Translations under genes and position numbers: made by a program
Virus record (IMG/VR): IMGVR_UViG_3300025118_002664
Coordinates: 1-47,322 of that record
Length of the DNA stretch: 47,322 bases
Reading direction: 5' to 3' (one strand)
From: a virus
Part shown: positions 8,822 through 41,264 of the stretch, in pieces
Numbering within the stretch: position 1 is the first letter of the stretch
Layout: every line of letters begins with the position of its first letter
Notes under the pieces: generated by a model
Told to the model about the DNA's origin: nothing
Seen by the model: only the letters and a program-made list of their open reading frames with translations
Databases searched by the model: none

Positions 8822-11672
8822 AAATTCATTTAGTAAAGATATACAAGACGAATTAAATTATAGAAAATCTTTTAATGCTCTTCAAACTGTATTAATGCCC
8901 CATGTAAGAGTAACTTCACTTGTTGAAACTGAAGGTGTATGGTCTGTTTCAGATCCCAATAAGAAGTATCAACAATTAAGAGGATTTACACTAGGCATAT
9001 CCGATCTAGATAATATGAACAGTCTTAGTTCATATTTTAATAGAGGAGGACAGACAGGAACAGGTATTGGAATAACATATATGGGTAATAAACCAACTCC
9101 AGTTCACATTGATACTGTTCCAAATTTACCACCCCCCGGCGTAACTGGAGTAACTATATCAACTCAATCCAAAGGTGGTTTTATTTTTAAGGCCGTGGTT
9201 AGTTTAAAGTTTTATGGAAAAGAACAATATGATTTTATTTATCAAACCATGTTACGGCCAGGAAATCCAATTGTTATTGAGTATGGTCATACTCGAAATC
9301 CGGTTACTGATGAACAACTGTTGGTGAAGAAGGGCTTCTTTGAGTCGGCCCCAGACGAACCCCCGCGGGTAGGTTTGGAGTATGAATCGGTTTCTGCTGC
9401 GGGTACAACTAATAAAGATTTAGAGTTCTTTGATGTGTTAGATGGTTCTACTTTTCAAAAATATGTAGATAATTTTAGAAATAATATACCATTAAAGCCC
9501 ACAAGAAATTCTGGAGCCGTCATTGGGCTGGTGTCTAATTTTAGAACCCGATTAAATGAACAAAATGAATATGAAGCTGAAATAGAAATTATAAATGCAT
9601 TAGAATTTTTATTTACACTGGGCATAGATGATACATTTTTAGACTATCGTGAAAATACTCAACAGTCAAAATCCATTCGTGAAGGATTTGGCCAAATTTC
9701 ACGGGAGGGATGGCAACCAGATCATGACATATATTTTCAGTCAGTTATAGAAGATGGTCTGGTCAACGTGGATGTGGATAATGTTGAGAATAAATATAAT
9801 CACCAGATTATATTACCTTCTGAGTGGACTATTGATCCTGTCGAGATTCCATTTGTTGAGGGTTCCGGGCAACGTACAGTTGATAGGTCAACTTCGAATA
9901 AGGATGCGGAGGCTCAACAGAAGTATAACATCAAGAGTGGTTCAGATATTACATATCTATCTTTACGATATTTTTTCGATAGGTTGTTACCACGAATTAT
10001 AAACACCGCATTTCGTAATTCGGAGGTATTTAACTATGAAGTAAAACTTGAATCAGGCGATGAAGATGAGTCAGATAGAATCATATATTATCCAGAATTA
10101 AGATCAATAGATATTAACAGCATATTAATAAACAATGTTAATTTGTATGTTGACGCCGGTACACTAGTGTATGGGGGGGGAGATCGTGATGGAGATCACT
10201 TGTCCCAACTGGGATCATTAGTCGAGAGGATTTCTACGGAATATTCTACGTTTTTCCAAAACATACGACAAGACAATTATTCATATAAATACACAGATTC
10301 AACTAATACTAGTTTTTTTGCTATTGTTCCTGAATGGTCTGAAAAGGAATTGTATACAAATACAGATTCACTTGGTGGTATTTTTATAAATTATTTGGTT
10401 ATTAGAGATGCTTTTAATTCTTCCAATTCAGTTGCTGAGGCAGTACAAAAAGTTTTGAACCAAATAAATGTTTCTAGTAATAATCTTTTAAATTTAAAAA
10501 TGAGATATGTGGAGATGAAACCTCCTACAGACATCTTGGCCAATTATGAAAATATGTCAGGGGAAGAGAAAGATGCAGCGATGGAGGAGCTGGGGCGCTT
10601 TACCGGCCGTTCGGGCCTCACTACTAAGATTGTATTAACAATTTTTGATGAAAGAAAAATGGTTGCCGACAATATAGGAAATAAAAAGTCGAATTTGTTT
10701 ACTTTCTTTTCTGGAAATGTTTCAGAGGCATTATCATATGATTTAAATTTTTCGTTGCCAACTGCTATTGCAAGTTCTGTTATGGCAAGTACGTTTAGTC
10801 CTTTAGAAACCATAGGAGGAGTTTACGGAGATCCAGAGTTAAAAACTGTTGTAGATTATGGATATGCTCTGGATGATAATGGAGAGGCTGCCGTAAAAAG
10901 TATGTTGCGTGATCAACAACTCTCTGATAACCAAGATTTACAGACGATACAAGAGTTAATTAGAACTACTGGAATAGTAATATCTGAAAAAGCAGGTGGA
11001 AAAGAACAAATTATAAATCGGTTTAATGTCTTAAATAATGACATTGATAGAGGTGAAATTCACGCTATAATGGTGAGGGGAGCTAAAATCTACCTGGCAA
11101 AGCGTGATGGGTATGCACGGAAAGCGGCCCGCCCCCACGACCTAACAATAAACGGCGTCACAGGCCTCTCATCGGAACGGATTGAACGGATCATTACTAA
11201 AGCATTACTTTATCAAGCGATGGACGAAGTAGCTTCGGGTGAGGTTGATAATCGTATGGACGCAGACGAAATAACTGAAGAACGCCTTCTTAGAGAAATA
11301 ATAGGATATCAAGAATTAACACCTGCTGCCATGAAAGCTTCAACAATTAAAAATAAGTTACTTCAACAGACAAGTCTTCCAGCAGCACCACAAATTAATA
11401 TAAAATTACAAGGCCTTGATGGTTTTAAGTTTGGAAATTTGTTTACGGTTAAAAATGTTTTACCTTCACCATATAATGAAACTAATGTTTTTATGGTGAC
11501 CGGATATAAACATACTATAGATTCTACAGCGTGGACCACAGAACTTCAAGGTCAATTGATTGCTAGTGGCCAACCACGTTTTCAAGCGGCTATGGCCAAA
11601 GCTCGAGTAGGCGGGGACGATCCCCACGCGGGAATTGTGGGTAGGGGAGCACATATGTTAGGAGATTCATAA
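8808..11672 (+). CDS. Large baseplate hub protein
   Basis: This protein has 954 residues from the ATG at 8808. An ATG also exists at 8805, but the AAGGA at 8797-8801 is better spaced for 8808. The N-terminal half contains beta-rich blocks (GGFIFKAVVSLKFYGKEQYD, MLRPGNPIVIEYGHTRNP) typical of hub proteins of the gp27/gpD type, where a surface forms a tube-sized ring. The C-terminal block IKLQGLDGFKFGNLFTVKN followed by FMVTGYKHTIDSTAWTTELQG is the classic closing motif of phage hub proteins. It lies directly after the LysM protein, the usual order. No lysozyme or peptidase domain is evident, so cell-wall digestion must come from another protein. Confidence 0.7.
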   Translation: MPLFKNSFSKDIQDELNYRKSFNALQTVLMPHVRVTSLVETEGVWSVSDPNKKYQQLRGFTLGISDLDNMNSLSSYFNRGGQTGTGIGITYMGNKPTPVHIDTVPNLPPPGVTGVTISTQSKGGFIFKAVVSLKFYGKEQYDFIYQTMLRPGNPIVIEYGHTRNPVTDEQLLVKKGFFESAPDEPPRVGLEYESVSAAGTTNKDLEFFDVLDGSTFQKYVDNFRNNIPLKPTRNSGAVIGLVSNFRTRLNEQNEYEAEIEIINALEFLFTLGIDDTFLDYRENTQQSKSIREGFGQISREGWQPDHDIYFQSVIEDGLVNVDVDNVENKYNHQIILPSEWTIDPVEIPFVEGSGQRTVDRSTSNKDAEAQQKYNIKSGSDITYLSLRYFFDRLLPRIINTAFRNSEVFNYEVKLESGDEDESDRIIYYPELRSIDINSILINNVNLYVDAGTLVYGGGDRDGDHLSQLGSLVERISTEYSTFFQNIRQDNYSYKYTDSTNTSFFAIVPEWSEKELYTNTDSLGGIFINYLVIRDAFNSSNSVAEAVQKVLNQINVSSNNLLNLKMRYVEMKPPTDILANYENMSGEEKDAAMEELGRFTGRSGLTTKIVLTIFDERKMVADNIGNKKSNLFTFFSGNVSEALSYDLNFSLPTAIASSVMASTFSPLETIGGVYGDPELKTVVDYGYALDDNGEAAVKSMLRDQQLSDNQDLQTIQELIRTTGIVISEKAGGKEQIINRFNVLNNDIDRGEIHAIMVRGAKIYLAKRDGYARKAARPHDLTINGVTGLSSERIERIITKALLYQAMDEVASGEVDNRMDADEITEERLLREIIGYQELTPAAMKASTIKNKLLQQTSLPAAPQINIKLQGLDGFKFGNLFTVKNVLPSPYNETNVFMVTGYKHTIDSTAWTTELQGQLIASGQPRFQAAMAKARVGGDDPHAGIVGRGAHMLGDS

Positions 11673-12055
11673 TGTTATTTGATGTCACTATTACAAACAC
11701 AGCACCAACAATAACGGAAGTTTATAGACTGCAAGGTTATCTTCCACGATATTTTGCTGCTAGAGCAAATCGTATATATAATGAAGTATTTGAGATTTCT
11801 CGTAAAGATTATGAACGTTTCTATGACAATTCGTATGTTGTGTTAGGTCATTTGAAATGGGTTATTAAAGGTCACTTAACGGATCGTAAATTTAATTTAT
11901 ACACGGGCAATCCTACATTTGCTGGGGGTAGAGAACAAATTAATATTCCTAGCGTCTTGACACAGAACGCTGCAGCAGTTAAATTCCTTAGTAAGAGAAT
12001 ACCATATCTTGAAAATCATTTGACAAACTATCAAGAATTTTATGACGGAGTTTGA
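11672..12055 (+). CDS. Unknown small protein at the end of the tail module
   Basis: This 127-residue protein is not recognised. It is rich in Tyr, Arg and Asn (LQGYLPRYFAARANRIYNEVF), with no signal peptide or membrane segment. The start overlaps the hub gene stop (TAATG) with GGAG 8 bases upstream, and its own stop overlaps the next start (TGATG). It is therefore translated as part of the tail operon, and a minor baseplate component is the simplest guess. Confidence 0.6.
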   Translation: MLFDVTITNTAPTITEVYRLQGYLPRYFAARANRIYNEVFEISRKDYERFYDNSYVVLGHLKWVIKGHLTDRKFNLYTGNPTFAGGREQINIPSVLTQNAAAVKFLSKRIPYLENHLTNYQEFYDGV

Positions 12056-13332
12056 TGCAATTTTTAAAAGGTTATGATTTACAAACACTTCTAGCTTCTG
12101 ACGAACCCAAGGTTTGTTTGTATTTACTTTCAGATCCAGAGGCACACCCTCTCTTAAATTCTTTGTCTTGCATTTATGTTAAGACTCAAGATGGAGAATT
12201 CTATTCTTCATTTACTCATGTTGATTATCCCCACCAAGATTATCAAGGTTTGGTTCTACGAAATGCTTTTGTGTATGACATAAAGCAATTGTTACACTTG
12301 GGGTTGGATGTACAAGATTGTTTTGATTTAAAATATTTTGATAATAAGGAAGTTTACAATCAACTTTCTACATTCTATTCTGTTCGGTTGAGTCAAGTTT
12401 CTAATCTAAATTCGGTGATTCCCATTTATTCTCATTTGGATACGCTTCAACAAATTGGTCAATCGTTAGATGTTGTATTGTTAGATAAAAAGAAAGATGC
12501 TTTTGATCAGAAGTATCTAACTACATACCATAATATTATTCCTTATGTTTTTTCTAAAATAGAATCTGAAGGATTGTTTGTTGATCACGATACATTTTTG
12601 AATTCATTTGGATTGGAGAGGCGTAATTTAATTAACGATGATAGAGTTTTAACTAACTATAATCATTACACCACCACAGGCAGACCCAGTAACGCATATG
12701 GTGGAATCAATTATGCTGCTCTCAATAAGGCTGATGACTCTAGAACCTCATTTGTTTCTAGACATGAGAATGGTAAGTTAGTAAATATGGATTTTAATGG
12801 TTATCATTTATTTTTAGTTGCAGAACAGATTGGTATGGAACTTCCAGAAGACCCACATACAATGTTGGGTCAACATTATTTTAAAACAACAGAACTAACA
12901 CCGAAACAATATAATGAGTCAAAGGTAATAACTTTTAGAAATCTTTATGGATATCAGTTTGAAGATATTGTAAAAGACATTCCGTTGTTTGATAAAGTTG
13001 ATAGATTCCAAGATAAATTGTGGTCAGAGTATCAGAGTAAAGGTATGTTGATTACAGAGCTTGGCAAAAAGATTGTGGTAGAAAACGCTATACGAAATAA
13101 AGTATTTAATTATTTTGTTCAGTCGGTGGAAGCAGAAACAAATATCAAATATTTGTACAATCTTATAAAACAAGATATAGTTCCGATTCTCTATACTTAT
13201 GATTCAATGCTTTTTGATGTAGAGGAAGCTAAAATTGATAATTTAATTAATATTTTACGGGATGTATTGAAACATCCGTTTTCAATTTCTATTGGTGACA
13301 ACCTGAAAAATATGAAATTTGAACATTTTTAA
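12055..13332 (+). CDS. Divergent family A (PolA-like) DNA polymerase-related protein
   Basis: This 425-residue protein starts at the ATG overlapping the upstream stop; GGAG at 12047-12050 supports it. The C-terminal half retains the Pol I palm layout. It has a TTTGRPS turn near 206-212, motif A KLVNMDFNGYHLFLVA with Asp246 (Pol I DYSQIELR), motif B ESKVITFRNLYG with Lys290 and the final YG, a QSVEAE block near 357 aligning with the Pol I IQG-AAD helix, and motif C YTYDSMLFD with Asp383. Both metal-binding aspartates are kept. The N-terminal 120 residues resemble a decayed 3'-5' exonuclease fold (AFVYDIKQLLHLGLDV). It sits just before gp32. The phage also has a full gp43, so this is a second polymerase-like protein of unknown task. 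Confidence 0.65.
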   Translation: MQFLKGYDLQTLLASDEPKVCLYLLSDPEAHPLLNSLSCIYVKTQDGEFYSSFTHVDYPHQDYQGLVLRNAFVYDIKQLLHLGLDVQDCFDLKYFDNKEVYNQLSTFYSVRLSQVSNLNSVIPIYSHLDTLQQIGQSLDVVLLDKKKDAFDQKYLTTYHNIIPYVFSKIESEGLFVDHDTFLNSFGLERRNLINDDRVLTNYNHYTTTGRPSNAYGGINYAALNKADDSRTSFVSRHENGKLVNMDFNGYHLFLVAEQIGMELPEDPHTMLGQHYFKTTELTPKQYNESKVITFRNLYGYQFEDIVKDIPLFDKVDRFQDKLWSEYQSKGMLITELGKKIVVENAIRNKVFNYFVQSVEAETNIKYLYNLIKQDIVPILYTYDSMLFDVEEAKIDNLINILRDVLKHPFSISIGDNLKNMKFEHF

Positions 13333-13343: not shown

Positions 13344-13367
13344 GACAATTCCAACAGAGGGATTGTC
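13344..13367 (+). promoter_or_regulatory. Ribosome-binding-site-sequestering hairpin
   Basis: The arms GACAATTCC (13344-13352) and GGGATTGTC (13359-13367) form a continuous 9-bp stem with one G-U pair and the 6-base loop AACAGA. The Shine-Dalgarno sequence (GAGGG, 13357-13361) lies in the loop and 3' arm, and the stem ends on the base before the ATG. Long transcripts should therefore translate the next gene poorly. Transcripts starting inside the 5' arm would not form the stem. Confidence 0.65.
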
Positions 13368-13799
13368 ATGGAGACACAGTTACTTTGTACTTTTTGTAAG
13401 TCAGATGAGTTGATCAAAACTTGTCAAGAGATCTCAGAAAAATATCAAGTAGTTTCAGATAAAATTTTTATTTTAGAAAATACGAAAGAAGCAGTGGACA
13501 TTTACTCTGATGATGAACAACAGTTAATTTTAACATATAATGTTACAAATGCTGATTTAAACGATGTTTTAAATTCCACAATATCCGTTCATCGTAAAAA
13601 ACAAACTAATACCATTTATACAATCAATGCTCTTAATAAATTAATCATGGAAAAGAATAATGGAATCCTAGATAAAAGATTTAGAGTTGATTGGGAAGAA
13701 TTAGAGAATATGGTTTTGGTCACCGCATATGGCAAATTGAAAAAGATACCAACACAAGTAAAACAAATTTTAAGATTAGACGAAATTACGAATACTTAA
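13368..13799 (+). CDS. Conserved T4-like phage protein of unknown function
   Basis: This 143-residue protein has the look of a conserved hypothetical of marine T4-like phages. The N-terminus LLCTFCKSDELI carries a CTFC pair, then come ISVHRKKQTNTIYTINALN and a C-terminal LDKRFRVDWEELEN block with a basic tail (GKLKKIPTQVKQIL). There is no catalytic motif. A single CxxC is not enough for a zinc site unless it dimerises. It lies between the PolA-like gene and gp32 in a region rich in regulatory signals, so a role in replication or late transcription is possible. Its translation is probably controlled by the hairpin immediately before the ATG. Confidence 0.65.
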   Translation: METQLLCTFCKSDELIKTCQEISEKYQVVSDKIFILENTKEAVDIYSDDEQQLILTYNVTNADLNDVLNSTISVHRKKQTNTIYTINALNKLIMEKNNGILDKRFRVDWEELENMVLVTAYGKLKKIPTQVKQILRLDEITNT

Positions 13800-13900: not shown

Positions 13901-14674
13901 ATGGCTCTTGACATTGCGGCACTTCGTGCCAAGTTAAACACTTTTCAGGGACAAACTAAGCGGACATCCGCTTTTTGGAGGCCGACAGAAGGCAAGTCCC
14001 AAGTAAGGATCGTTCCGTTGACGAACTGTCCCGAAAACCCCTTCAGTGAACTCTATTTCCATTATCTTGGAAACCGGAGTCACCTAAGTCCAATTTCCAA
14101 CGGTAATCGTGATCCGATTGCAGAGTTCGCGGAGAACCTTCGTGCTGAGGGAACCCGTGATGCTTATCAACAGGCTCGTGCTTTTATGCCCAAACTTCGC
14201 ACTTTCGCTCCAGTAGTGGTCCGTGGTGAAGAAGACAAGGGTGTGCGTTTTTACTCGTTTGGTAAGACTGTTTATCAAGCACTTCTTACTTACATTAACG
14301 ATCCCGACTATGGTGATATTACTCATATCGAAACTGGACGGGACATTGTAGTGGATTATACTCCACAGGAGAAGAGTGATACGAACTTCGCGAAGACAAC
14401 GATTTTGGTGAAGCCGAATCAGACTCCAGTTTCAGAGGATGCTGAGTTGGTCGAACGCTGGACAACCAAGCAACCAGATCTTAATACTCTTTTCAAGGAA
14501 CCTACTTTTGAAGAGCTGTCCGTTGTTCTAAAGCGTTACCTTGATCCTAATTCAGCGGATGAAGATACTAGTACAACTGAACAGGTAACTGCACCTGCTA
14601 CAGTACAGGCTTCGTCTGGTGGTGATAAGGTTAAGTCAGCAGTAGATGAGTTTGAGTCCCTATTTTCAGAATAA
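13901..14674 (+). CDS. 32: Single-stranded DNA-binding protein gp32
   Basis: This 257-residue gp32 homologue coats single-stranded DNA during replication and recombination. It has a short basic N-terminus (ALRAKLNTFQ), a core beginning FWRPTEGKSQVRIVPL, the FYSFGKTVYQALLTYI stretch typical of gp32 cores, a Thr/Ala-rich linker and an acidic tail DEFESLFSE, through which gp32 contacts partners. It has only one Cys (C43) and lacks the His/Cys3 zinc site of T4 gp32. It uses more G/C-ending codons than its neighbours, fitting high expression. It has its own promoter and a strong AAGGAG site, and is followed 11 bases later by uvsX. Confidence 0.85.
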   Translation: MALDIAALRAKLNTFQGQTKRTSAFWRPTEGKSQVRIVPLTNCPENPFSELYFHYLGNRSHLSPISNGNRDPIAEFAENLRAEGTRDAYQQARAFMPKLRTFAPVVVRGEEDKGVRFYSFGKTVYQALLTYINDPDYGDITHIETGRDIVVDYTPQEKSDTNFAKTTILVKPNQTPVSEDAELVERWTTKQPDLNTLFKEPTFEELSVVLKRYLDPNSADEDTSTTEQVTAPATVQASSGGDKVKSAVDEFESLFSE

Positions 14675-14685
14675 GGGGCTAGCTC

Positions 14686-15801
14686 ATGGCTGTCAAAAAG
14701 AAGGTAAAGACGCCTGATCGTGATGAGATGGCGCAAATTATTGCTGATAGTTTAAACTCTTTGATGTCTGAAGAAGATCAAGTTGCATACTTCTTAGACG
14801 GCTATGACGAAACACCAGTTGATTTAAACGATTGGGTACCTACAGGTGCCACCATGCTTGATTTGGCGATTGCAAATCGTCCGCATGGTGGTCTGCCTGT
14901 GGGTAGGATAGTAGAAATTACAGGACTAGAACAGTCAGGTAAGAGTTTATTAGCCGCACACGTTATAGCTAATACTCAAAAGAGAGGTGGTGTCGGTGTT
15001 ATTATTGATACCGAATCTGCCGTACATGATGATTTTTATCGTGCTATTGGTCTTGACATGTCCAAGTTGGTTTATGTTCATGCCGAGGCAATAGAAGATG
15101 TCTTTGAGATGATAACCAATATCATTGAGAAGGTCAGAAAAACCGATAAGGATAAGATTGTTACTATTGTAGTAGATTCTGTTTCTTCTGCTTCGACCAA
15201 GAGTGAAATAGAATCTAAGTTTACCAAGGATGGTTATGCAACTGACAAGGCAATCATTCTAAGTAAGGCTATGAGAAAGGTTACGAATATGTTAGCCAAA
15301 CAACGTATTCTATTAATCTTCACTAATCAGTTAAGACAGAAGATGAATGCAATGCCGTTCGCAGATCAGTACACTACTTCTGGAGGAATGTCACTTCGAT
15401 TCCATTCATCAGTTCGTTTGAGATTGAAGATGATTTCAAAGATAAAAAATTCTTCAAAAGATGTTGTTGGTGTAACTGTCAAAGCAATTGTAATGAAGAA
15501 TCGTTGCGGCCCTCCACTTCGTGAGGCCACTTTTGATATTTACTTTGACCGCGGTATTGATGAATATTCTGCGTGGTTAAAGGTTATGAAGGAAAACAAG
15601 TTAGTTAAACAGGCGGGTGCTTGGTATAAATTTGTTGATGAAAGTGGTGAAGAACATAAGTTCCAAGCCAAAGATTTTGCAGAGTTTTTAGAAGCAGATC
15701 AAGAACGTAAGGATAAGATCTATAATGATATTTGTGAAAATATAATTATGTCTTATCGTTCAACAGATAAGAAACCAATTTTCGAGGATGATGAGGAATG
15801 A
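14686..15801 (+). CDS. uvsX: UvsX (RecA-type) recombinase
   Basis: This 371-residue strand-exchange ATPase drives T4-type recombination-dependent replication. The Walker A motif is GLEQSGKS at 80-87, the catalytic Glu lies in IIDTESAV near 110, and the Walker B region is IVVDSVSSAS at 161-170. FTNQLRQKMN and the TTSGGMSLRFHSSVRLRL loop that follows are typical of RecA/UvsX DNA-binding loops. The C-terminal tail is acidic (FEDDEE). The position after gp32 and before the 5' nuclease fits a recombination and replication operon. The stop overlaps the next ATG (ATGA). Confidence 0.93.
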   Translation: MAVKKKVKTPDRDEMAQIIADSLNSLMSEEDQVAYFLDGYDETPVDLNDWVPTGATMLDLAIANRPHGGLPVGRIVEITGLEQSGKSLLAAHVIANTQKRGGVGVIIDTESAVHDDFYRAIGLDMSKLVYVHAEAIEDVFEMITNIIEKVRKTDKDKIVTIVVDSVSSASTKSEIESKFTKDGYATDKAIILSKAMRKVTNMLAKQRILLIFTNQLRQKMNAMPFADQYTTSGGMSLRFHSSVRLRLKMISKIKNSSKDVVGVTVKAIVMKNRCGPPLREATFDIYFDRGIDEYSAWLKVMKENKLVKQAGAWYKFVDESGEEHKFQAKDFAEFLEADQERKDKIYNDICENIIMSYRSTDKKPIFEDDEE

Positions 15802-16832
15802 CGCAGGATCTTCTAGAAGTTTTTCAGTCAATGGATTTTTCTAATAAGGATGAGGGTATTGCTCTTAATGATCGGGTTTTGATTATTGATGGTATGAATA
15901 CATTTATTAGATCCTTTGCTGCAATTCCAACTATGGATGAGAATGGAAACCATATAGGAGGAGTTACAGGATTTTTAAAGTCGGTTGGTTATGTAACTCG
16001 TAAGTTTAAACCTAGTCGGGTGTATGTTATATTTGATGGCAAAGGTGGTTCTAAACGCCGAAGAGATATTTATCCCGATTATAAGTTAGGTAGAAAACCT
16101 TTAACTAGGTTAAACCGAACTTATGATATGACCACCGAAAAAGACGAACAGGATTTGATGAGATATGAATTGGTGATCGTTGCAAAGGCGTTGATGAAAT
16201 TGCCCATTACAACGATTACTCTTGACCACGTTGAAGCAGATGACATCATTAGTTATATTGCCCAACATGTGGTGGAGAACGGTGGAGAGAGTATTATTTA
16301 TTCTACCGATAAAGATTTTCTTCAATTGGTCGGAGACGATATTAAAGTCTGGAATCCGGTCAGAAAGAAAACATACATTCCAGAAATAGTAGTTGAAGAT
16401 TATGAGATACATCCTAACAATTTCCTTTTGTATAGGGCATTAACTGGCGATACCAGTGATAATCTTCCCGGCATAAAAGGGTTGGGAATGAAAACTCTAT
16501 TAAAGATTGTGCCTGAATTTGTTACTGAACAACATCTTACGTTTGATGATGTTATTGATGCTGCTGAAAATTCTAAGTTGAAAGTTGCGTCAAGGATTAT
16601 TGATGAACAAGAATCTATTAAACTGAATATAAAATTAATGTCGTTACGATCTGTTATGATTAGTGACAATAATAAGATGAAAATTTTAAATAAAATCAAC
16701 CGTCCTCAATTATCGTTACACAAGTATGACTTGACAAAGTTGCTAATGGAGACTAATATATTACCAGCAATGCAAAACTACGATAGTTGGGTAGTTTCCA
16801 CTTTTAACTCGTTGACGAGGTTTGATGGTTGA
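15798..16832 (+). CDS. rnh: RNase H-like 5'-3' exonuclease / flap nuclease (T4 rnh family)
   Basis: This 344-residue nuclease of the T4 RNase H/FEN family removes RNA primers and adjacent DNA from Okazaki fragments. Metal-binding acidic residues are in LIIDGMN (D31), VIFDGKGG (D80), VEADD (E147, D149, D150) and STDKDF (D171, D173). The helix-three-turn-helix DNA-binding region follows as GDTSDNLPGIKGLGMKT (217-233). The ATG overlaps the uvsX stop. T4 RNase H is 305 residues, so length is in range. A possible internal promoter near 16732 may serve gp41. Confidence 0.88.
   Translation: MTQDLLEVFQSMDFSNKDEGIALNDRVLIIDGMNTFIRSFAAIPTMDENGNHIGGVTGFLKSVGYVTRKFKPSRVYVIFDGKGGSKRRRDIYPDYKLGRKPLTRLNRTYDMTTEKDEQDLMRYELVIVAKALMKLPITTITLDHVEADDIISYIAQHVVENGGESIIYSTDKDFLQLVGDDIKVWNPVRKKTYIPEIVVEDYEIHPNNFLLYRALTGDTSDNLPGIKGLGMKTLLKIVPEFVTEQHLTFDDVIDAAENSKLKVASRIIDEQESIKLNIKLMSLRSVMISDNNKMKILNKINRPQLSLHKYDLTKLLMETNILPAMQNYDSWVVSTFNSLTRFDG
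16732..16760 (+). promoter_or_regulatory. Possible internal promoter for gp41
   Basis: TTGACA (16732-16737), a 17-base spacer and TAATAT (16755-16760) lie inside the end of the 5' nuclease gene, 65 bases before gp41. The -10 box is weaker than in the intergenic promoters and the site is within coding sequence, so it may be coincidence. Confidence 0.25.
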
Positions 16833-18201
16833 TTTTAATAAAAATGTAGATACGATCACCCAGTTCGGCCCAGCCTTTCAATCTAAGGTTATTGCTTCAC
16901 TGATCCTCAATGGATCTTTTTTGGGTCAGTCAACTGATGTTTTGAATCCAAACTTTTTTGAAAGTCAAGCTTCAAAATGGATTGTCAATAAAATTATTCA
17001 ATATTATTCAGAGTATAAGAAAAACCCATCAATGGATTTTTTCAGAGTTGAAATGAATGATCTGGAGACAAAGAGTAATTTAAAGGTAGAGGTTATTGAT
17101 CAGTTAAAAAACAGTCATATCCATTTTACAGATCAAGATCTTGAATATGTTCAAAATAGATTTTTAGAATTTGCTAAGAATCAAACTCTCAAACATGCTA
17201 TTCTTCGTTCAGCTGAATTGTTACAGAGGGGCGAGTATGATGATATTAAATCTTTAATTGACAATGCATTGAAGGCAGGAACTCAAAAAGATGTTGGACT
17301 TATGTGGGAAGAAGACTTTGATGTTAGACATCTTGAGTCCGCTAGAAACACTATGCCAACGGGTTGGACCCCCATAGATGAACACCTAGACGGTGGGTTG
17401 GGGCCAGGTGAGTTAGGCGTCATTGCTGCACCCTCAGGCATCGGTAAGTCATGGGCCCTCACCAACTTAGGTAAGGTTGCTCTTGAACAGGGCAAGAATG
17501 TCCTTCATTATAGTTTTGAGTTAAATGAAAACTATCAAGGTATTCGTTATGATACCGTGTTTTCACAAATTGAACCCTCTAAATTGAAAAATCATTTAGA
17601 TTTAGTTAAGGGTATTGTTGGTGAAGTAGAAGGAAAATTAATCATTAAATATTTCCCAGGCAGAACAGCTACAGTTAATACTTTGATGGCCCATGTTGAT
17701 TATCTTAGTATGCAAAATTTCATTCCAGACTTAATTGTTGTTGATTATGCTGACTTGATGGTGACGCCTACGAAGTCAAATGCACGTTACGAAGAGTTGG
17801 GATATATTTATGAAGAACTGAGGTCAATGTCAGGCGAATTACAAGTCCCAATTTGGACCGCGAGTCAAACTCAGCGGTCCAGTATTAATGACGAAATAAT
17901 TGAGGCTGATAAGATCGCAGAAAGTTACAATAAGGTCAAAACAGCAGATGTTTTGTTGTCACTCAGCCGCAAAACCGAAGATAAGATTAACAATACGGGC
18001 CGAGCACATCTTGTGAAAAACAGGTTCGGCCCTGACGGTGTTACATTTCCTGTTCGGATGGATACCTCCAAAGGTATCGTTAAAATATATGACCCGAATT
18101 CTCCAGAGGGTGATAAGCTTAAAGAAACAATGGCTAGTGGTGAGGCAAACATGAGGAAGTTTTTGGCTGATAAACTGAAGGGTTTTACAAATGAAGCCTA
18201 G
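16825..18201 (+). CDS. 41: Replicative DNA helicase gp41 (DnaB family)
   Basis: This 458-residue hexameric 5'-3' helicase has a helical N-terminal domain (1-150) and a RecA-like motor. Walker A is APSGIGKS at 202-209, LHYSFELNEN near 227-236 is the DnaB-like H1a/Walker-associated block, DLIVVDYADL at 302-311 is Walker B, and WTASQTQRSS is followed by LVKNRFGPDG with the arginine-finger region. The ATG at 16825 is preferred to an in-frame TTG at 16822; GAGG at 16817-16820 precedes it. It overlaps the nuclease gene by 8 bases. It would unwind the fork ahead of gp43; no primase gp61 gene was recognised in the window. Confidence 0.9.
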   Translation: MVDFNKNVDTITQFGPAFQSKVIASLILNGSFLGQSTDVLNPNFFESQASKWIVNKIIQYYSEYKKNPSMDFFRVEMNDLETKSNLKVEVIDQLKNSHIHFTDQDLEYVQNRFLEFAKNQTLKHAILRSAELLQRGEYDDIKSLIDNALKAGTQKDVGLMWEEDFDVRHLESARNTMPTGWTPIDEHLDGGLGPGELGVIAAPSGIGKSWALTNLGKVALEQGKNVLHYSFELNENYQGIRYDTVFSQIEPSKLKNHLDLVKGIVGEVEGKLIIKYFPGRTATVNTLMAHVDYLSMQNFIPDLIVVDYADLMVTPTKSNARYEELGYIYEELRSMSGELQVPIWTASQTQRSSINDEIIEADKIAESYNKVKTADVLLSLSRKTEDKINNTGRAHLVKNRFGPDGVTFPVRMDTSKGIVKIYDPNSPEGDKLKETMASGEANMRKFLADKLKGFTNEA

Positions 18202-20872: not shown

Positions 20873-23461
20873 ATTTACCAAAATATCTATCTAGCAAAAG
20901 ATAAGATTTATATATGGGATGATAAGAAAGGGTTTTATATCATTGATGCAAAAGAGTATCAATATGCCTATCGTAGAAATCCAAATGGAAGTCATGTAAC
21001 TTTCACCGGAGAACATTGTTCAAAGACGAGAAAATTTGAACGTGGAGAGGCCGGAGTTTTTGAAAGTGATCTTCCGTTAGAAACCAGAGTCTTAACAGAC
21101 ATCTATCTAGAAGATGATGAACCATCCGAAGGACACCGTTTGGTGTTCTTTGATATTGAGGTTTCTATGGAAGATAATCTTCCTAACGTAGAGACTGCTA
21201 ATAATAAAATTACTTCCATCGCTCTTTACGATCAAATCACAGATGAGTATCATGTTTTGGCTTTAGATGAATATGGGTCAAAAGACAATTATGATAAGGA
21301 CAATACCTACGTTAAATTCTTTTCAGATGAATACGATCTCCTTTCTTTCTTTTTAGATCTGTGGGAAGGCATAAACCCAACAATCATTACAGGGTGGAAT
21401 ACTAATTATTTCGATGTTCCATATCTCTATCGTAGATTAAGTGAGGTGTTGGGCAGGGGCCAGGCCAATAGACTTTCTTCTATTAATAAAGTTAAATTTT
21501 CCAAATACAGAAAGAAATATCAAATTGCTGGTATCTCTTCGTTAGATTATTTAGATCTTTATAGAAAGTTTACTTACATTGAACAACCCAATTATCGTCT
21601 TGATACGATTGGTAAGTTGGAAGTTGGAATGGGCAAGGTTGAATATGACGGTACCTTAGATGAACTGTTTGAACAAGACTTAGATAAATTTGTTGAATAT
21701 AATTTGACTGATGTAAAGATCGTTGTAGAGCTTGAAAAGAAAATGAAATTGATTGAGCTTGTCCGTGGTATCTGTCACATTGGTCATGTACAATATGAAG
21801 ATTATGGATTTTCATCTCGCTTTCTTGAGGGAACAATTGTAACCTATCTACATCGTAAGGGTTTGATTGTTACCGACAAACAGGCAAATGCACGACAGAT
21901 GATGAATGATCGTGATGATACTGATAAGTTTATAGGAGCCTATGTTAAAGTTCCCAATCCTTCAAAATGTGATTGGGTATTTTCTTTAGATCTACAGTCG
22001 CTATATCCTTCCATTATTATGTCTCTTAATATTTCACCAGAGACGAAGGTTGGGAGTGTTACTAATTGGAATAATAAGAGTTTTGTAGATGGTGAAATGG
22101 ATAAGTTTTCTGTTGAAACAGATGGGATAGTTGATTTAAATAGAGAACAATTTGATTCGTTTATGGCCGAACATAACTTAGCTATAAGTTCTAATGGTAT
22201 TTTATACCAACAAAATAAAAGAGGAATCATTCCAGAAATTCTTGAACGGTGGTTTGATCAGAGAATTGAATTTCAGAAGCTGATGAATAAACATGCAAGT
22301 GAAGGCGATATTGAAATGGCACAATTTTATGATCGCAGACAACACATTCAAAAGATTTTCTTAAATTCATTGTATGGTGTTTTGGGACTTCCTATTTTCA
22401 GATTCTTTGATTTGGATAACGCCGTTGCTGTCACTACTACAGGTCAGGATGTCATTAAAAATTCTGAGGTATTTGTGAATGATTTATTTGAACAGTTGGG
22501 GGCCGAACCAAAGAGTAGTGCAGAGTTGGCAAAATACGAATTAGCTCTCAAACAGGAAGCGGTTAAACGGAAAGAAAGATTTGTAGCTCCTTCAGAAAAA
22601 GATTGGTGTATTTACATTGATACTGATAGTTTATATTTTTCTTCCCTTCCACTGAAACATAAGTTGAAAGGGGATTTACAATCAGCTACAATTAAACTTT
22701 CTCGTTTTGTGGAACAAAAATTAAATGAACATTATGATAAGATAGCTGTTGATTATTTTAATTGTCCTAATCATAGATTTCATATTAAGGGTGAAATAAT
22801 TGCTAAGTCTGGAATTTGGATTACAAAGAAAAGATATGCAATGCTGAAAGTTTATGATTTAGAAAAGAATACTGAGATTGAACCTAAGTTGATTGTTAAG
22901 GGACTAGATATTGTTCGTTCAACATTTCCAATTGTTTTTAAAGAGTATATGAGAAACTTTATTATAAGTTTGTTGAACGATACGGACAAGATTGATATAG
23001 ATAAAGTGATGGTAGATTTTGTTGGTGGTCTTAAAGATGTTCCGTTTAGGAGGATTGCAAGAAACACAGCAGCTAAGAACGTAACGAAGTACAAAACATC
23101 AAATGATAGGTTGGGACATTATATGAAGAGTACTCCGATGCATGTAAAGTCGGTGATAAATTATAATCATCTTTTGAAAGAGTTTGGAATTGAAAAACAG
23201 TTCCCTCCAATCAATGATGGAGAAAAGATAAAGTATGTAATGTTACGACAGAACCCATATCATATTGATACTTTGGCGTTTAAAGATTACGAAGATCCTC
23301 CACAGATTGTGAAGTTTTTAAAAACGTATTCCGATCATCAAAGATTGTTTGATGCTGAGTTGAAAAAGAAGTTACAAGATTTCTATAATGCTTTGGGTTG
23401 GGGAGAGTTGCCCATCAACATTAAAGTTGATAGAAATATTTTAAATATGTTCGGTCTATGA
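20873..23461 (+). CDS. 43: Family B replicative DNA polymerase gp43, probable ATT start
   Basis: This is the phage replicative polymerase with proofreading exonuclease. From an ATT at 20873 it has 862 residues, close to T4 gp43 (898) and its marine relatives. The first conventional codon with clear family similarity on both sides is TTG at 21140, which would delete about 89 conserved residues such as YQNIYLAKDKIYIWDD and RVLTDIYLEDDEPS. The upstream frame is open and homologous-looking back to 20873, has no ATG, GTG or TTG before a TAG at 20852, and has GAGGG 7 bases before the ATT. Exonuclease motifs are FFDIE (92-96), NTNYFDVP (176-183) and YNLTDVKIV (276-284). Polymerase motifs are LDLQSLYPSI (372-381), KIFLNSLYG (494-502) and IYIDTDSLYF (580-589). 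Confidence 0.9.
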   Translation: MYQNIYLAKDKIYIWDDKKGFYIIDAKEYQYAYRRNPNGSHVTFTGEHCSKTRKFERGEAGVFESDLPLETRVLTDIYLEDDEPSEGHRLVFFDIEVSMEDNLPNVETANNKITSIALYDQITDEYHVLALDEYGSKDNYDKDNTYVKFFSDEYDLLSFFLDLWEGINPTIITGWNTNYFDVPYLYRRLSEVLGRGQANRLSSINKVKFSKYRKKYQIAGISSLDYLDLYRKFTYIEQPNYRLDTIGKLEVGMGKVEYDGTLDELFEQDLDKFVEYNLTDVKIVVELEKKMKLIELVRGICHIGHVQYEDYGFSSRFLEGTIVTYLHRKGLIVTDKQANARQMMNDRDDTDKFIGAYVKVPNPSKCDWVFSLDLQSLYPSIIMSLNISPETKVGSVTNWNNKSFVDGEMDKFSVETDGIVDLNREQFDSFMAEHNLAISSNGILYQQNKRGIIPEILERWFDQRIEFQKLMNKHASEGDIEMAQFYDRRQHIQKIFLNSLYGVLGLPIFRFFDLDNAVAVTTTGQDVIKNSEVFVNDLFEQLGAEPKSSAELAKYELALKQEAVKRKERFVAPSEKDWCIYIDTDSLYFSSLPLKHKLKGDLQSATIKLSRFVEQKLNEHYDKIAVDYFNCPNHRFHIKGEIIAKSGIWITKKRYAMLKVYDLEKNTEIEPKLIVKGLDIVRSTFPIVFKEYMRNFIISLLNDTDKIDIDKVMVDFVGGLKDVPFRRIARNTAAKNVTKYKTSNDRLGHYMKSTPMHVKSVINYNHLLKEFGIEKQFPPINDGEKIKYVMLRQNPYHIDTLAFKDYEDPPQIVKFLKTYSDHQRLFDAELKKKLQDFYNALGWGELPINIKVDRNILNMFGL

Positions 23462-37658: not shown

Positions 37659-38645
37659 ATGGATAGAATTAGAAAGTTATTTGTAGCAGGTGGTGCTGGT
37701 TATATCGGTACAAGACTTTGCAATCTATTGGCTGGTTCTGGAGATCACGAACCAGATTACGAGGTAACGGTTTTTGATCAGTTTTGGTTTGGTGATAGTT
37801 TAGACGATAGGATAACCAAGATTAAAGGTGACATACTTGATCTGAAATCAAGTGACTTGGTAGGATATGATGCTGTTATATTTTTGGCAGGACTATCCAA
37901 CGATCCAATGGTAGCTTACAGGCCCGATTTAAATTTTATTCAAAACAGTGCAGCGCCCACTTATTTGGCATATATTACGAAACAAGCCCAGATTAGAAGG
38001 TTTATAGGGGCAAGTTCGTGTAGTGTATATGGACATACAGAGAATAAAACACTCACAGAAACTAGTACAGTTAAACCGACATACCCATATGGTATCTCAA
38101 AACTTCAATGTGAAAGAGGTATCATGTTGTTGGAAGATGATAACTTCAAACCTATATTGTTTAGGAAGGGTACTGTTGGTGGTTGGTCAGAGAGAATGAG
38201 ATATGATTTGGTTGTGAATACAATGTTGATGACTGCCTTTACAAAAAGAAAGATAACTGTAAATAGTCCACAACTTTGGCGACCGCTGTTAGATATTAGA
38301 GATGCGATCCAAGGATACTGGTTAGCAATAGATTTGTTTCCAGATTCAAAAATTTCTGGAGTATATAATTTATCTGGAGGAAATTATACAATAGGTGAAC
38401 TTGGAAAAATTATCTATGATACTTTGTCTGAGAGAGGTTATGATATAGAATTGGAATACTTGGATGTACAAGACATTAGAAATTATAAAGTTGACATAAC
38501 AAAGATAGAGGAAGAATTGAATTACGCACCACGGTTTACACCAACAGGTACCGTTCAAGAGATATTGGAAAATATTAATTTAGATGAGTATGATTTCTCA
38601 GATGACAAATATTATAATATAAACGTATTTAAAAAGGTAATGTAA
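37659..38645 (+). CDS. NAD-dependent sugar epimerase/dehydratase (extended SDR)
   Basis: This 328-residue protein has the NAD-binding GGAGYIGTRLCNLL, FLAGLSNDPMVAYRPD, the catalytic SSCSVYGHTE Ser, and YPYGISKLQCERG with the Tyr-x3-Lys pair. It belongs to the GalE/WcaG type of nucleotide-sugar epimerases and dehydratases. The exact substrate cannot be read by eye. It follows RmlC directly, so a dTDP- or GDP-keto sugar is likely. Confidence 0.8.
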   Translation: MDRIRKLFVAGGAGYIGTRLCNLLAGSGDHEPDYEVTVFDQFWFGDSLDDRITKIKGDILDLKSSDLVGYDAVIFLAGLSNDPMVAYRPDLNFIQNSAAPTYLAYITKQAQIRRFIGASSCSVYGHTENKTLTETSTVKPTYPYGISKLQCERGIMLLEDDNFKPILFRKGTVGGWSERMRYDLVVNTMLMTAFTKRKITVNSPQLWRPLLDIRDAIQGYWLAIDLFPDSKISGVYNLSGGNYTIGELGKIIYDTLSERGYDIELEYLDVQDIRNYKVDITKIEEELNYAPRFTPTGTVQEILENINLDEYDFSDDKYYNINVFKKVM

Positions 38646-39352
38646 TGAATGTATTTTTGACAGGCGGTTCTGGATTACTTGGGAAACAATTGGTGAATGA
38701 ATTAGACAAGAGGGGTGTTAGACACCACAGTCCCACACATACAGCGTTTAATGTTATTGAACAACGTCTTGGCGATGTGATACTTTGGGGTGGCTTTAAA
38801 CCCGATGTAGTAATCCACTGTGCTGCGGTTGCAAGATACAGGGATGTGGAAAAAGATATTGGAAAAGCGTTGGGAACCAATGTTATAGGAACCTGTCATT
38901 TGATTCGGGAATGTATTCAACATGATATAAGAATGGTTTATATATCAACGGATCATGTATTTGATGGTTTAGATGGGCCATATGGTGTTGGTGATAAGAT
39001 AAATCCAATTACCAAATATGCTAAAACTAAAGCGGCCGGTGAATTGGCAGTAAGAACATACGATAATTCATTGGTAATTAGAACTTCTTTTTGTCCATCT
39101 GAGTTTATGTTTGATACGGCATATACTGACAAGTGGACATCTCAGGATTATGTAGATAAGGTTGCTCCAAAAATACTTGATAAATGTTTGAGTGATCAAG
39201 TAGGAGTATGTCATGTCGGACATCCTAGAAGATCTTTTTATGACCTAGCGGTAGAAAGACATCCAGATATAAAGAAGGGAAGTGTTGCCGAGATAATGAA
39301 GACTTCAAAGGTACCCATACTAATAGATACTAGTTTAGGAGATATTATATGA
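38645..39352 (+). CDS. RmlD-like sugar-nucleotide reductase (short form)
   Basis: This 235-residue protein of the RmlD substrate-binding family shows GGSGLLGKQLVNEL, DVVIHCAAVARYRDVE, VYISTDHVFDG, and the KYAKTKAAGELAVRTY catalytic Lys region. RmlD is usually about 290 residues, so the C-terminal substrate domain is short. It would reduce a 4-keto-6-deoxysugar to rhamnose or a related sugar. GMD-type products are an alternative substrate, given the gmd gene 6 kb downstream. Confidence 0.7.
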   Translation: MNVFLTGGSGLLGKQLVNELDKRGVRHHSPTHTAFNVIEQRLGDVILWGGFKPDVVIHCAAVARYRDVEKDIGKALGTNVIGTCHLIRECIQHDIRMVYISTDHVFDGLDGPYGVGDKINPITKYAKTKAAGELAVRTYDNSLVIRTSFCPSEFMFDTAYTDKWTSQDYVDKVAPKILDKCLSDQVGVCHVGHPRRSFYDLAVERHPDIKKGSVAEIMKTSKVPILIDTSLGDII

Positions 39353-40116
39353 ATGGGATCTTTTTTAAAGATTTATTGAATGAACTGAACAATCTTAAGA
39401 ATCAAGGTGTGGTTGGTATAAAACAATCGTTCGAAGATGAAGGTGTGATTTTGGATGATTTAATTACAATGAGAAGATTGACTGATTTGTCTGGAGTGTA
39501 TCTTAGTGTAAAGATCGGCGGGTGTGAGGCTATAACAGATATTAATTTATCTCAACAGGTTGGGGTTGATGGTGTTGTAGCACCAATGATTGAATCACAG
39601 TTTGCTTTACAAAAATATATTGAAATTGTTAAAGATTTAAAAGATATCAAATTGTATGTAAATATAGAAAGTAGACAGGCTTATAATAATTTGGATTCTA
39701 TATTGTCAAGTCCATCTTCAAAGTTGCTTTGTGGTGTAGTTGTTGGTAGATCCGATTTGACCAAATCTTATGGTCATGGAAAAGATTATGTAGACTCAAA
39801 AGAAATGCAAAATATTGTTTATGATGTTATGTCCAAATGTAAAGAATATGATATGATAACTCTTATGGGTGGAAATATTTCTAACAAGAGTGTTGGTTTT
39901 ATAAAAAAATTATTTGAAGAAAAGTTGTTGGATTATATCGAGACAAGAAATGTTATAATGAAACTAACGGATAGTAGTGTTAATAACTTAAATGGTTTGG
40001 TTAAATCTGCTCTTTTATTTGAATCTCTTTGGTTAAAGTTCAAAGCAAATAAGTATAAAAAAATATCAGATGAATATATGTTAAGATCAAATACTATTAA
40101 TGATAGATTGTTATGA
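39349..40116 (+). CDS. HpcH/HpaI aldolase-like protein
   Basis: This 255-residue TIM-barrel protein is related to HpcH/HpaI aldolases and citrate lyase beta subunits. It contains YLSVKIGGCEAITDI, GVDGVVAPMIESQFALQKYIE, YVNIESRQAYNNL and VVVGRSDLTKSYG, which hold the acidic metal and pyruvate/acyl-binding residues of the family (Glu in MIES and NIES). It overlaps the next gene, an LdpA-like 4Fe-4S protein, by 4 bases. Family members cleave or join pyruvate-type units, so making a sugar acid is a possible role. The activity is not proven by sequence. Confidence 0.65.
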   Translation: MNGIFFKDLLNELNNLKNQGVVGIKQSFEDEGVILDDLITMRRLTDLSGVYLSVKIGGCEAITDINLSQQVGVDGVVAPMIESQFALQKYIEIVKDLKDIKLYVNIESRQAYNNLDSILSSPSSKLLCGVVVGRSDLTKSYGHGKDYVDSKEMQNIVYDVMSKCKEYDMITLMGGNISNKSVGFIKKLFEEKLLDYIETRNVIMKLTDSSVNNLNGLVKSALLFESLWLKFKANKYKKISDEYMLRSNTINDRLL

Positions 40117-41264
40117 ATAGATTTGAAGAATTAAAAGATATTTTGATGACAGAAAATTGTTTCAAAATGATATGTGGGGCTGGTAATGAAGACGCTCCAT
40201 ATGTTAAAAAATTGTCTTTTATTTACACATTGGTTGGAGCCAAGATTCTTGATGTTTCTGCTAACCCAAATGTGGTCAGACATGCCAAAGAGGGAATAGA
40301 TTTAGCATTTGAACGGTCTACTAGTTTTGGAATTGATGTTGGTGTAAGACCTTTTATAATGGTTAGTGTTGGTATGCCTGGTGATCATCATGTTAGAAAA
40401 TCATACATAGACCCACACACATGTGTTGAGTGTGGATTGTGTATACCAGTGTGTCCCACAGATGCCATTCCATCAGATTTTGTTTCTAAGTTAGAAGTAT
40501 TTAAACAACTGGATGGAACATTTGATACAGAAGACCAATCAAAAGAAATTGTAATAAAAAACCTGTGCATTGGTTGTGGAAAATGTAGTAACATTTGTCC
40601 GAAAGATGACATCATATCATATCGACATAATTACAGAGAATTAGAAAAACTGTTGCCACAGTGTATGGAAGCAGGTGCAGAGACATTTGAACTTCATGCT
40701 GCTGTCGGTGAAGATGATATTACTTTGAAAGAGTGGGAACTTATAACTTCTACAAATCCTCACAATTTTAATTCAGTTTGTTTGGATAGATTAAATCTTG
40801 GTAATTTAAATTTAGAATATAGAATAGAACAATTAAAAAATATATCAAATGACAAACTTATAATACAGTCAGATGGTTACCCGATGAGTGGGGGAGAAAA
40901 TGATTTTAATACAACCCTGCAGGCAGTTGCATGTGCTGATGTAATAAATAAAAAATTTAATATGAGAGTAAATAAGAAGATTAAAAAGGAAGGTTCTGGA
41001 AAAGCTGAACTAACTTCTAAAAAGTCTTATAGACCGTCAGGACATCGTTTGGGTGTTTTTATATTGTTGTCTGGCGGTACAAATGCACTGACAAGAAAAT
41101 TAACACAGTCATGTGATGTTAGATGTAATGGAGTTTCTATAGGAACATATGCTAGAGATATTATCGAAAACCTTGTTACAGATGAAATGTTTTGGTCAGC
41201 TGATAACATTATATTAAATGCTCTTGAAATCGCAAAGGACTTGGTAAAAGAAAATGAAATCTAA
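40113..41264 (+). CDS. LdpA-like 4Fe-4S ferredoxin-domain protein
   Basis: This 383-residue protein has an N-terminal part (15-95) resembling the cyanobacterial circadian protein LdpA: FKMICGAGNEDAPYV, YTLVGAKILDVSANPNVV, FIMVSVGMPGDHHVRKS. Two classical 4Fe-4S motifs follow, C104-x2-C107-x2-C110-x3-C114-P and C152-x2-C155-x2-C158-x3-C162-P. The C-terminal 200 residues form a TIM-barrel-like region (LIIQSDGYPMSGG, FILLSGGTNALT). It probably carries out or relays an electron-transfer step. It is coupled to an aldolase upstream and a HAD protein downstream, so it likely acts in making a specific sugar. A clock-related role is not suggested by the context. Confidence 0.7.
   Translation: MNRFEELKDILMTENCFKMICGAGNEDAPYVKKLSFIYTLVGAKILDVSANPNVVRHAKEGIDLAFERSTSFGIDVGVRPFIMVSVGMPGDHHVRKSYIDPHTCVECGLCIPVCPTDAIPSDFVSKLEVFKQLDGTFDTEDQSKEIVIKNLCIGCGKCSNICPKDDIISYRHNYRELEKLLPQCMEAGAETFELHAAVGEDDITLKEWELITSTNPHNFNSVCLDRLNLGNLNLEYRIEQLKNISNDKLIIQSDGYPMSGGENDFNTTLQAVACADVINKKFNMRVNKKIKKEGSGKAELTSKKSYRPSGHRLGVFILLSGGTNALTRKLTQSCDVRCNGVSIGTYARDIIENLVTDEMFWSADNIILNALEIAKDLVKENEI

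Follow-up and report, generated by a model that had tools for sequence, protein, structure and literature searches.

A thumbless, divPolA1-type family A DNA polymerase encoded beside the recombination and replication genes of aquatic T4-type phages

Within a viral DNA stretch of 47,322 nucleotides (IMG/VR record IMGVR_UViG_3300025118_002664; hereafter the window), a plus-strand gene at 12055..13332 encodes a family A DNA polymerase of 425 amino acids which, on the evidence of its sequence, is a new and distant member of the published divPolA1 family (Yutin et al., 2024). The assignment draws on the open reading frame, its homologues, the predicted fold, and the pattern of residue conservation. 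From sequence and structural model together, we consider it probable that the protein serves as an accessory polymerase, active, without proofreading, and of low processivity, which would fill short gaps during recombination-dependent replication. A preliminary description of this DNA had correctly recognized a second, PolA-like polymerase here, but overlooked the loss of the thumb, three replacements in the dNTP site, the presence of a separate 5′ nuclease gene, and the existence of the divPolA1 family.

The reading frame starts with the ATG at 12055, which overlaps the stop codon of the preceding gene in the sequence TGATG, and ends with a stop at 13332. Its recognition by databases is weak. 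The Pfam model DNA_pol_A (PF00476) matches the window protein with an E value of 1.1e-5 and 25 bits, under its curated gathering cut-off of 34.3 bits; the only other Pfam hit was to mCpol at noise level, the two models that describe the family B polymerase gp43 of T4 (PF00136 and PF03104) were not matched, and a PHROGs search of the protein returned no significant match. Among the 67 family members, 52 match PF00476, some relatives exceeding the gathering cut-off, and 22 match phrog_17, a PHROG family termed "DNA polymerase". A sequence search with the family profile brings up Klenow and further Pol I structures at an E value of 5e-8. A decaying pseudogene is ruled out by frames of ~420–465 amino acids in nearly all complete loci and by full-gene dN/dS ratios of 0.06–0.36 among close relatives, with purifying selection evident in both halves of the gene.

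The predicted structure places the protein firmly within the Pol I fold. An AlphaFold2 model computed from a 67-sequence alignment (mean pLDDT 91.8) displays a palm and fingers, and its best structural match, the Bacillus Pol I large fragment, spans nearly its whole length (Z 27.5, rmsd 3.5 Å, 400 of 425 residues aligned to a 579-residue chain); Klenow is matched with a Foldseek E value of 2e-18. The structural alignment equates the model from residue 1 onward with Bst Pol I 301–876, that is, the N-terminus takes the exonuclease fold. Residues 1–150 (12055..12504, plus strand) thus constitute a vestigial 3′–5′ exonuclease domain whose catalytic acids are not conserved: across 55 homologues no acidic residue in this region reaches 80% conservation except D91 and E129, a sequence-based count with an uncertain register near D27. 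The preliminary description had proposed just such a decayed, exonuclease-like N-terminus and the absence of a 5′ nuclease domain; the former is borne out by a fold that is kept with no conserved acids at the expected motifs, and the latter is correct for the polymerase chain itself. Between residues 170 and 207 (12562..12675, plus strand; IESEGL to TTTGR), only a remnant of the thumb persists, as judged from spacing within the family, where the distance from IExxGL to TGR is 16–34 amino acids compared with 120 in E. coli Pol I. Because HMMER aligns both flanks to Klenow, to residues 199–233 and then from residue 305 onward, the missing part is the thumb.

Conservation was assessed in a set of 55 homologues with less than 80% mutual identity, and residues were placed in E. 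coli numbering by fetching the Pol I sequence from MG1655 and aligning the family to Klenow. Invariant in all 55 are D246, H251, K290, F294, Y298, Q356, E359, Y382, and D383, as well as R210, N213, N219, and Y353. The E. coli equivalents are R668 for R210, D705 for D246, K758 for K290, F762 for F294, Y766 for Y298, N845 for N352, Q849 for Q356, and D882 for D383. All of the motifs named in the preliminary description (MDF, ESK...LYG, QS-E, and TYDS) are present in its numbering, as D246, K290, LYG at 297–299, Q356-S-x-E359, and Y382-D383-S. Along the plus strand they follow a TGRPSN segment (residues 208–213, 12676..12693; TGRLSS, 666–671, in E. coli) in which T208, R210, P211, and N213 are fixed in 55/55. 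Motif A runs from D246 to H251, the latter at the position of E710 (12790..12807). Motif B covers residues 286–299 (12910..12951) with Y286 at the position of R754, K290, F294, Y298, and G299; the Q356-S-V-E359 helix (13120..13131) is preceded by N352, kept in 54/55; and motif C comprises Y382, at the position of H881, and D383 (13198..13203). None of the homologues loses either aspartate or the motif B lysine, and the model shows palm and fingers, so that the two checks by which the preliminary description could have been refuted both came out on its side. D246, K290, F294, Y298, Q356, and D383 remain invariant at ~30% identity. Residue invariance and fold together rule out a chance motif match and bear out the claim of a Pol I-type polymerase at this locus.

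Three positions of the dNTP site are replaced across the family: E710 by His in 55/55, R754 by Tyr in 50/55, and H881 by Tyr in 55/55. Ordinary PolA proteins retain Glu at the first site in 21/22 (Asp in 1/22), Arg at the second in 22/22, and His at the third in 22/22. R754 of Pol I contacts the triphosphate, and E710 is the steric gate of family A. The comparison panel of 22, composed of E. coli, metagenome-derived prokaryotic genomes, and several phages, about half of it immuto-type, is small and partly redundant; the His/Tyr/Tyr combination is therefore presented as a signature of the family and not as a unique case.

The gene occupies a strikingly constant position. Upstream, a gene of the tail/baseplate module for a protein of 127 amino acids (11672..12055, plus strand), the same neighbor in 47 loci, ends within the polymerase start. 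Downstream lies a conserved gene for a 143-amino-acid protein with no function assigned (13368..13799), followed by genes for a gp32-type single-strand DNA binding protein (13901..14674; phrog_1192, E 1.9e-18), a UvsX-like recombinase (14686..15801; phrog_97, E 7.6e-71), a separate Pol I-type 5′ nuclease with both the 5_3_exonuc_N and 5_3_exonuc domains (15798..16832; PF02739, E 2.2e-32; PF01367, E 4.7e-11), and a gp41-type replicative helicase (16825..18201; phrog_19, E 5.4e-75), all on the plus strand. In the 82 loci with a recognized downstream gene, it is invariably the 143-amino-acid protein gene, beyond which gp32, UvsX, the 5′ nuclease, and gp41 usually follow, with baseplate or tail genes upstream of the polymerase. 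The two genes occur in the same six GenBank phage records, and a search started from the 143-amino-acid gene found the polymerase in 52 loci. The neighbor protein carries invariant HRK, N, Y, N, N, N, G, and W residues; its model is confident, and its best PDB match reaches only Z 5.7, with no clear known fold.

Several further features of this neighborhood merit description. An inverted repeat, GACAATtCC...GGgATTGTC (13344–13367), abuts the ATG of the 143-amino-acid gene and spans its likely ribosome site; it is possibly a translational control hairpin of that gene. The T4 late promoter consensus, looked for upstream, is not enriched within the window. Some relatives contain genes inserted between the polymerase and the 143-amino-acid gene (L010, 7010–8086; L220, 2919–4943), among them long low-complexity proteins that share a similar N-terminus (ILLEWSYR.. 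or ILLEISYR..). In Microcystis phage Mel-JY01 the 5′ nuclease (PP395634.1, 55792–56832; L008, 13369–14409) is annotated "DNA polymerase I", and the real PolA-like gene (PP395634.1, 50397–51623) is labeled hypothetical.

The family is far more widespread than the 14 published genomes. Clear members in phage collections are Mel-JY01, four records of the Flavobacterium immuto phages, and the uncultured 484-kb phage genome LR756508, although these collections were searched with single seeds, so that absence elsewhere is not proven. A scan of IMG/VR gave at least 550 candidate relatives, of which the best 80 were kept; their frames measure ~420–465 amino acids except at contig ends or in a few shorter versions. 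In a large group of uncultured T4-type phages from aquatic habitats the polymerase belongs to the core genes: it is present in every large contig tested but one (the 120-kb record G037, maybe a fragment) and nearly always sits between the tail genes and the gp32–UvsX–5′ nuclease–gp41 cluster. Loss from some members of the clade was considered and set aside, as contigs with the 143-amino-acid gene and apparently no polymerase mostly end close by, and in the sole apparent exception with 5 kb upstream, the 213-kb contig behind locus L220, the polymerase lay just outside the fetched stretch. A host gene is ruled out as far as tested, since a search of ~85,000 prokaryote genomes gave only 8 matches, every one of them in a metagenome-assembled bin. 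The bins that contain these members (L192–L199) carry names such as Nitrosopelagicus, Rickettsiaceae, and Winogradskyella, and one of them also includes an immuto-type PolA; the matches probably represent mis-binned phage DNA.

The relationship of the small polymerase to the main replicase is informative. As the preliminary description maintained, the phage already encodes gp43, a family B replicative polymerase at 20873..23461 on the plus strand (PF00136, E 1.8e-39; PF03104, E 4.2e-24; phrog_262). Its apparent start codon is ATT: the homologous N-terminus IYQNIY.. is preceded by GAGGG, and no in-frame ATG, GTG, or TTG occurs before 21140. At the same place relatives use ATG (L296, L297, L301), TTG (L298, L299), or apparently ATA (L300), which may be a sign that the replicase is weakly initiated. 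The small polymerase occurs together with a family B gp43 in the window, in Mel-JY01, in LR756508, and in 13/26 further contigs, a set in which many contigs break off close to the gene. The gp43 of LR756508 is in pieces, two open frames several kb apart (LR756508.1, 259681–267239), perhaps through an intron, intein, or insertion. The immuto genome contains no family B gene and has a full-length PolA at 37854–40187; among 15 large contigs that encode an immuto-type PolA, the small polymerase is found in 14 and PolB in none. Replacement of gp43 is thereby ruled out by the coexistence of both, and a partnership specific to gp43 by retention alongside a full-length PolA replicase. Since the small polymerase is kept when the main replicase changes, it neither stands in for gp43 nor assists gp43 alone. 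Furthermore, its sequence distances correlate with the distances seen for uvsX, gp32, the nuclease, and gp41 (r 0.86–0.92), as would be expected of a vertically inherited core gene.

In the mechanism that we propose, a Klenow-like Pol I would have kept its palm and fingers intact and its dead exonuclease domain as a scaffold, shed the thumb, and re-tuned the side chains that bind the nucleotide. Extension of a primer along a DNA template is most likely retained, given that both aspartates that bind metal, the lysine of motif B, and the equivalents of R668, N845, and Q849 are kept (55/55, 54/55, and 55/55 for the last three), these three being the Pol I residues that touch the minor groove of the primer-template. 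Lacking both the thumb and proofreading, the enzyme should work distributively and depend on partners to keep hold of the DNA. The constancy of gp32, UvsX, the 5′ nuclease, and gp41 as neighbors suggests that it probably adds short patches beside the main replicase, presumably in gap filling, primer replacement, and the extension of recombination intermediates, a role that would be independent of which replicase the phage uses. The preliminary description had suggested lesion bypass or gap filling as possible roles. Two considerations temper this proposal. Loss of R754 or of the thumb that grips the duplex could, either one, cripple synthesis; and the polymerase start is tied to a gene of the tail module and not to gp32, so that timing with replication is not assured.

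These same considerations invite the reading that the protein is catalytically idle, a former polymerase retained as a DNA-binding scaffold, a replisome regulator, or a structural protein, the last of which had been entertained in the preliminary description. The lost thumb, the dead exonuclease, the replacement of R754, E710, and H881 together, and the coupling to a tail gene would all suit such a role. A scaffold, however, would not need both metal ligands, and the strict conservation of the active site disfavors a structural protein in particular. The decay of exonuclease residues on the very chain whose polymerase residues are invariant serves as an internal control that argues for retained chemistry, and we hold the idle reading to be improbable.

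If synthesis is retained, the small polymerase could instead work specifically with the separate 5′ nuclease (15798–16832) as a two-piece Pol I, replacing RNA primers and filling the gaps before ligation as bacterial Pol I does. The cluster indeed encodes separately both Pfam nuclease domains of the Pol I small fragment, and the nuclease has the highest distance correlation of all partners (r 0.92). The corresponding partial correlation of 0.38 [0.14, 0.63] over 38 loci is suggestive only, and with gp41 added it falls to 0.27 [-0.09, 0.59] over 25 loci and loses significance. Moreover, strand displacement seems difficult for an enzyme lacking a thumb, and many T4-type phages process primers with a 5′ nuclease and gp43 alone; we regard a specific pairing, attractive as it is, as unlikely. 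The signature at the dNTP site raises the separate prospect of an altered substrate, in which His at E710 and Tyr at R754, so uniform in this family and so foreign to ordinary PolA, would allow ribonucleotides or modified nucleotides to be used, for example in making or extending primers. Yet the His may still serve as a steric gate, and the immuto phage also encodes a DnaG-type primase, which leaves the idea of a substitute for an absent primase unsupported. Sequence, moreover, does not reveal substrate preference, and a changed substrate appears highly improbable. A composite of these ideas, whereby the thumbless enzyme with its His/Tyr/Tyr replacements, the 5′ nuclease, and the 143-amino-acid neighbor would make up a split Pol I, re-tuned to an unusual nucleotide preference, across the aquatic T4-type clade whatever the replicase, strikes us as quite improbable. 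The accessory gap-filling polymerase remains the reading that we favor.

The thumb is commonly regarded as necessary for a family A polymerase to hold DNA. If our reading is true, this conserved lineage, thumbless yet in possession of the main catalytic residues, would show how little of Pol I suffices for synthesis, or else indicate that a partner supplies the grip. As the family survives with either PolB or a full-length PolA as replicase, it does a job that the replicase does not, and the cultured Flavobacterium immuto phages allow genetic tests of the family.

Compared with the Pol I of E. coli (Klenow) and Bacillus, the window protein shares the palm, the fingers, the exonuclease-domain fold, and the equivalents of D705, K758, F762, Y766, N845, Q849, and D882, but it is without a thumb or a working proofreading site, has E710, R754, and H881 replaced, and measures ~425 as opposed to 580–605 amino acids. 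The full-length, immuto-type PolA replicase immuto35A_71 is likewise of family A and resides in the same genomes as one divPolA1 branch; it differs in its 777 amino acids, its canonical residues at 710, 754, and 881, and its location elsewhere in the genome near groES/groEL. Two divergent groups have been described in phages by Yutin et al. 2024 (Virol J 21:200, PMC11348598). The divPolA2 of barbaviruses, with a novel N-terminal globular domain and a variable gene context (PMC11348598), resembles the window protein in being an extra PolA beside a regular polymerase and in having no normal thumb, whereas the window protein begins with a stretch alignable to the exonuclease domain of Pol I and its gene context is fixed. 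The divPolA1 proteins, described in 14 phages including immuto, have a conserved palm, a truncated thumb, and an inactivated exonuclease, with conserved replication genes lying downstream and a second, regular polymerase of family A, B, or C elsewhere in the genome; the authors concluded, independently of the present analysis, that these proteins most likely retain polymerase activity (PMC11348598). Every one of the structural and genomic features recurs in the window gene: palm motifs, truncated thumb, inactivated exonuclease, a regular polymerase besides, and downstream replication genes. Its similarity to the immuto_3-5A member (immuto phages MW353175-7) amounts to 28.3% identity over 91% by tblastn (E 1e-33), and intermediate sequences align from end to end. 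The published text makes no mention of His/Tyr/Tyr, of the constant 143-amino-acid neighbor, or of more than 14 genomes (PMC11348598). As such, the present analysis extends divPolA1 to far more genomes and adds the His/Tyr/Tyr signature, the 143-amino-acid gene as its constant partner, and persistence with a PolA replicase in the group of 15 large contigs.
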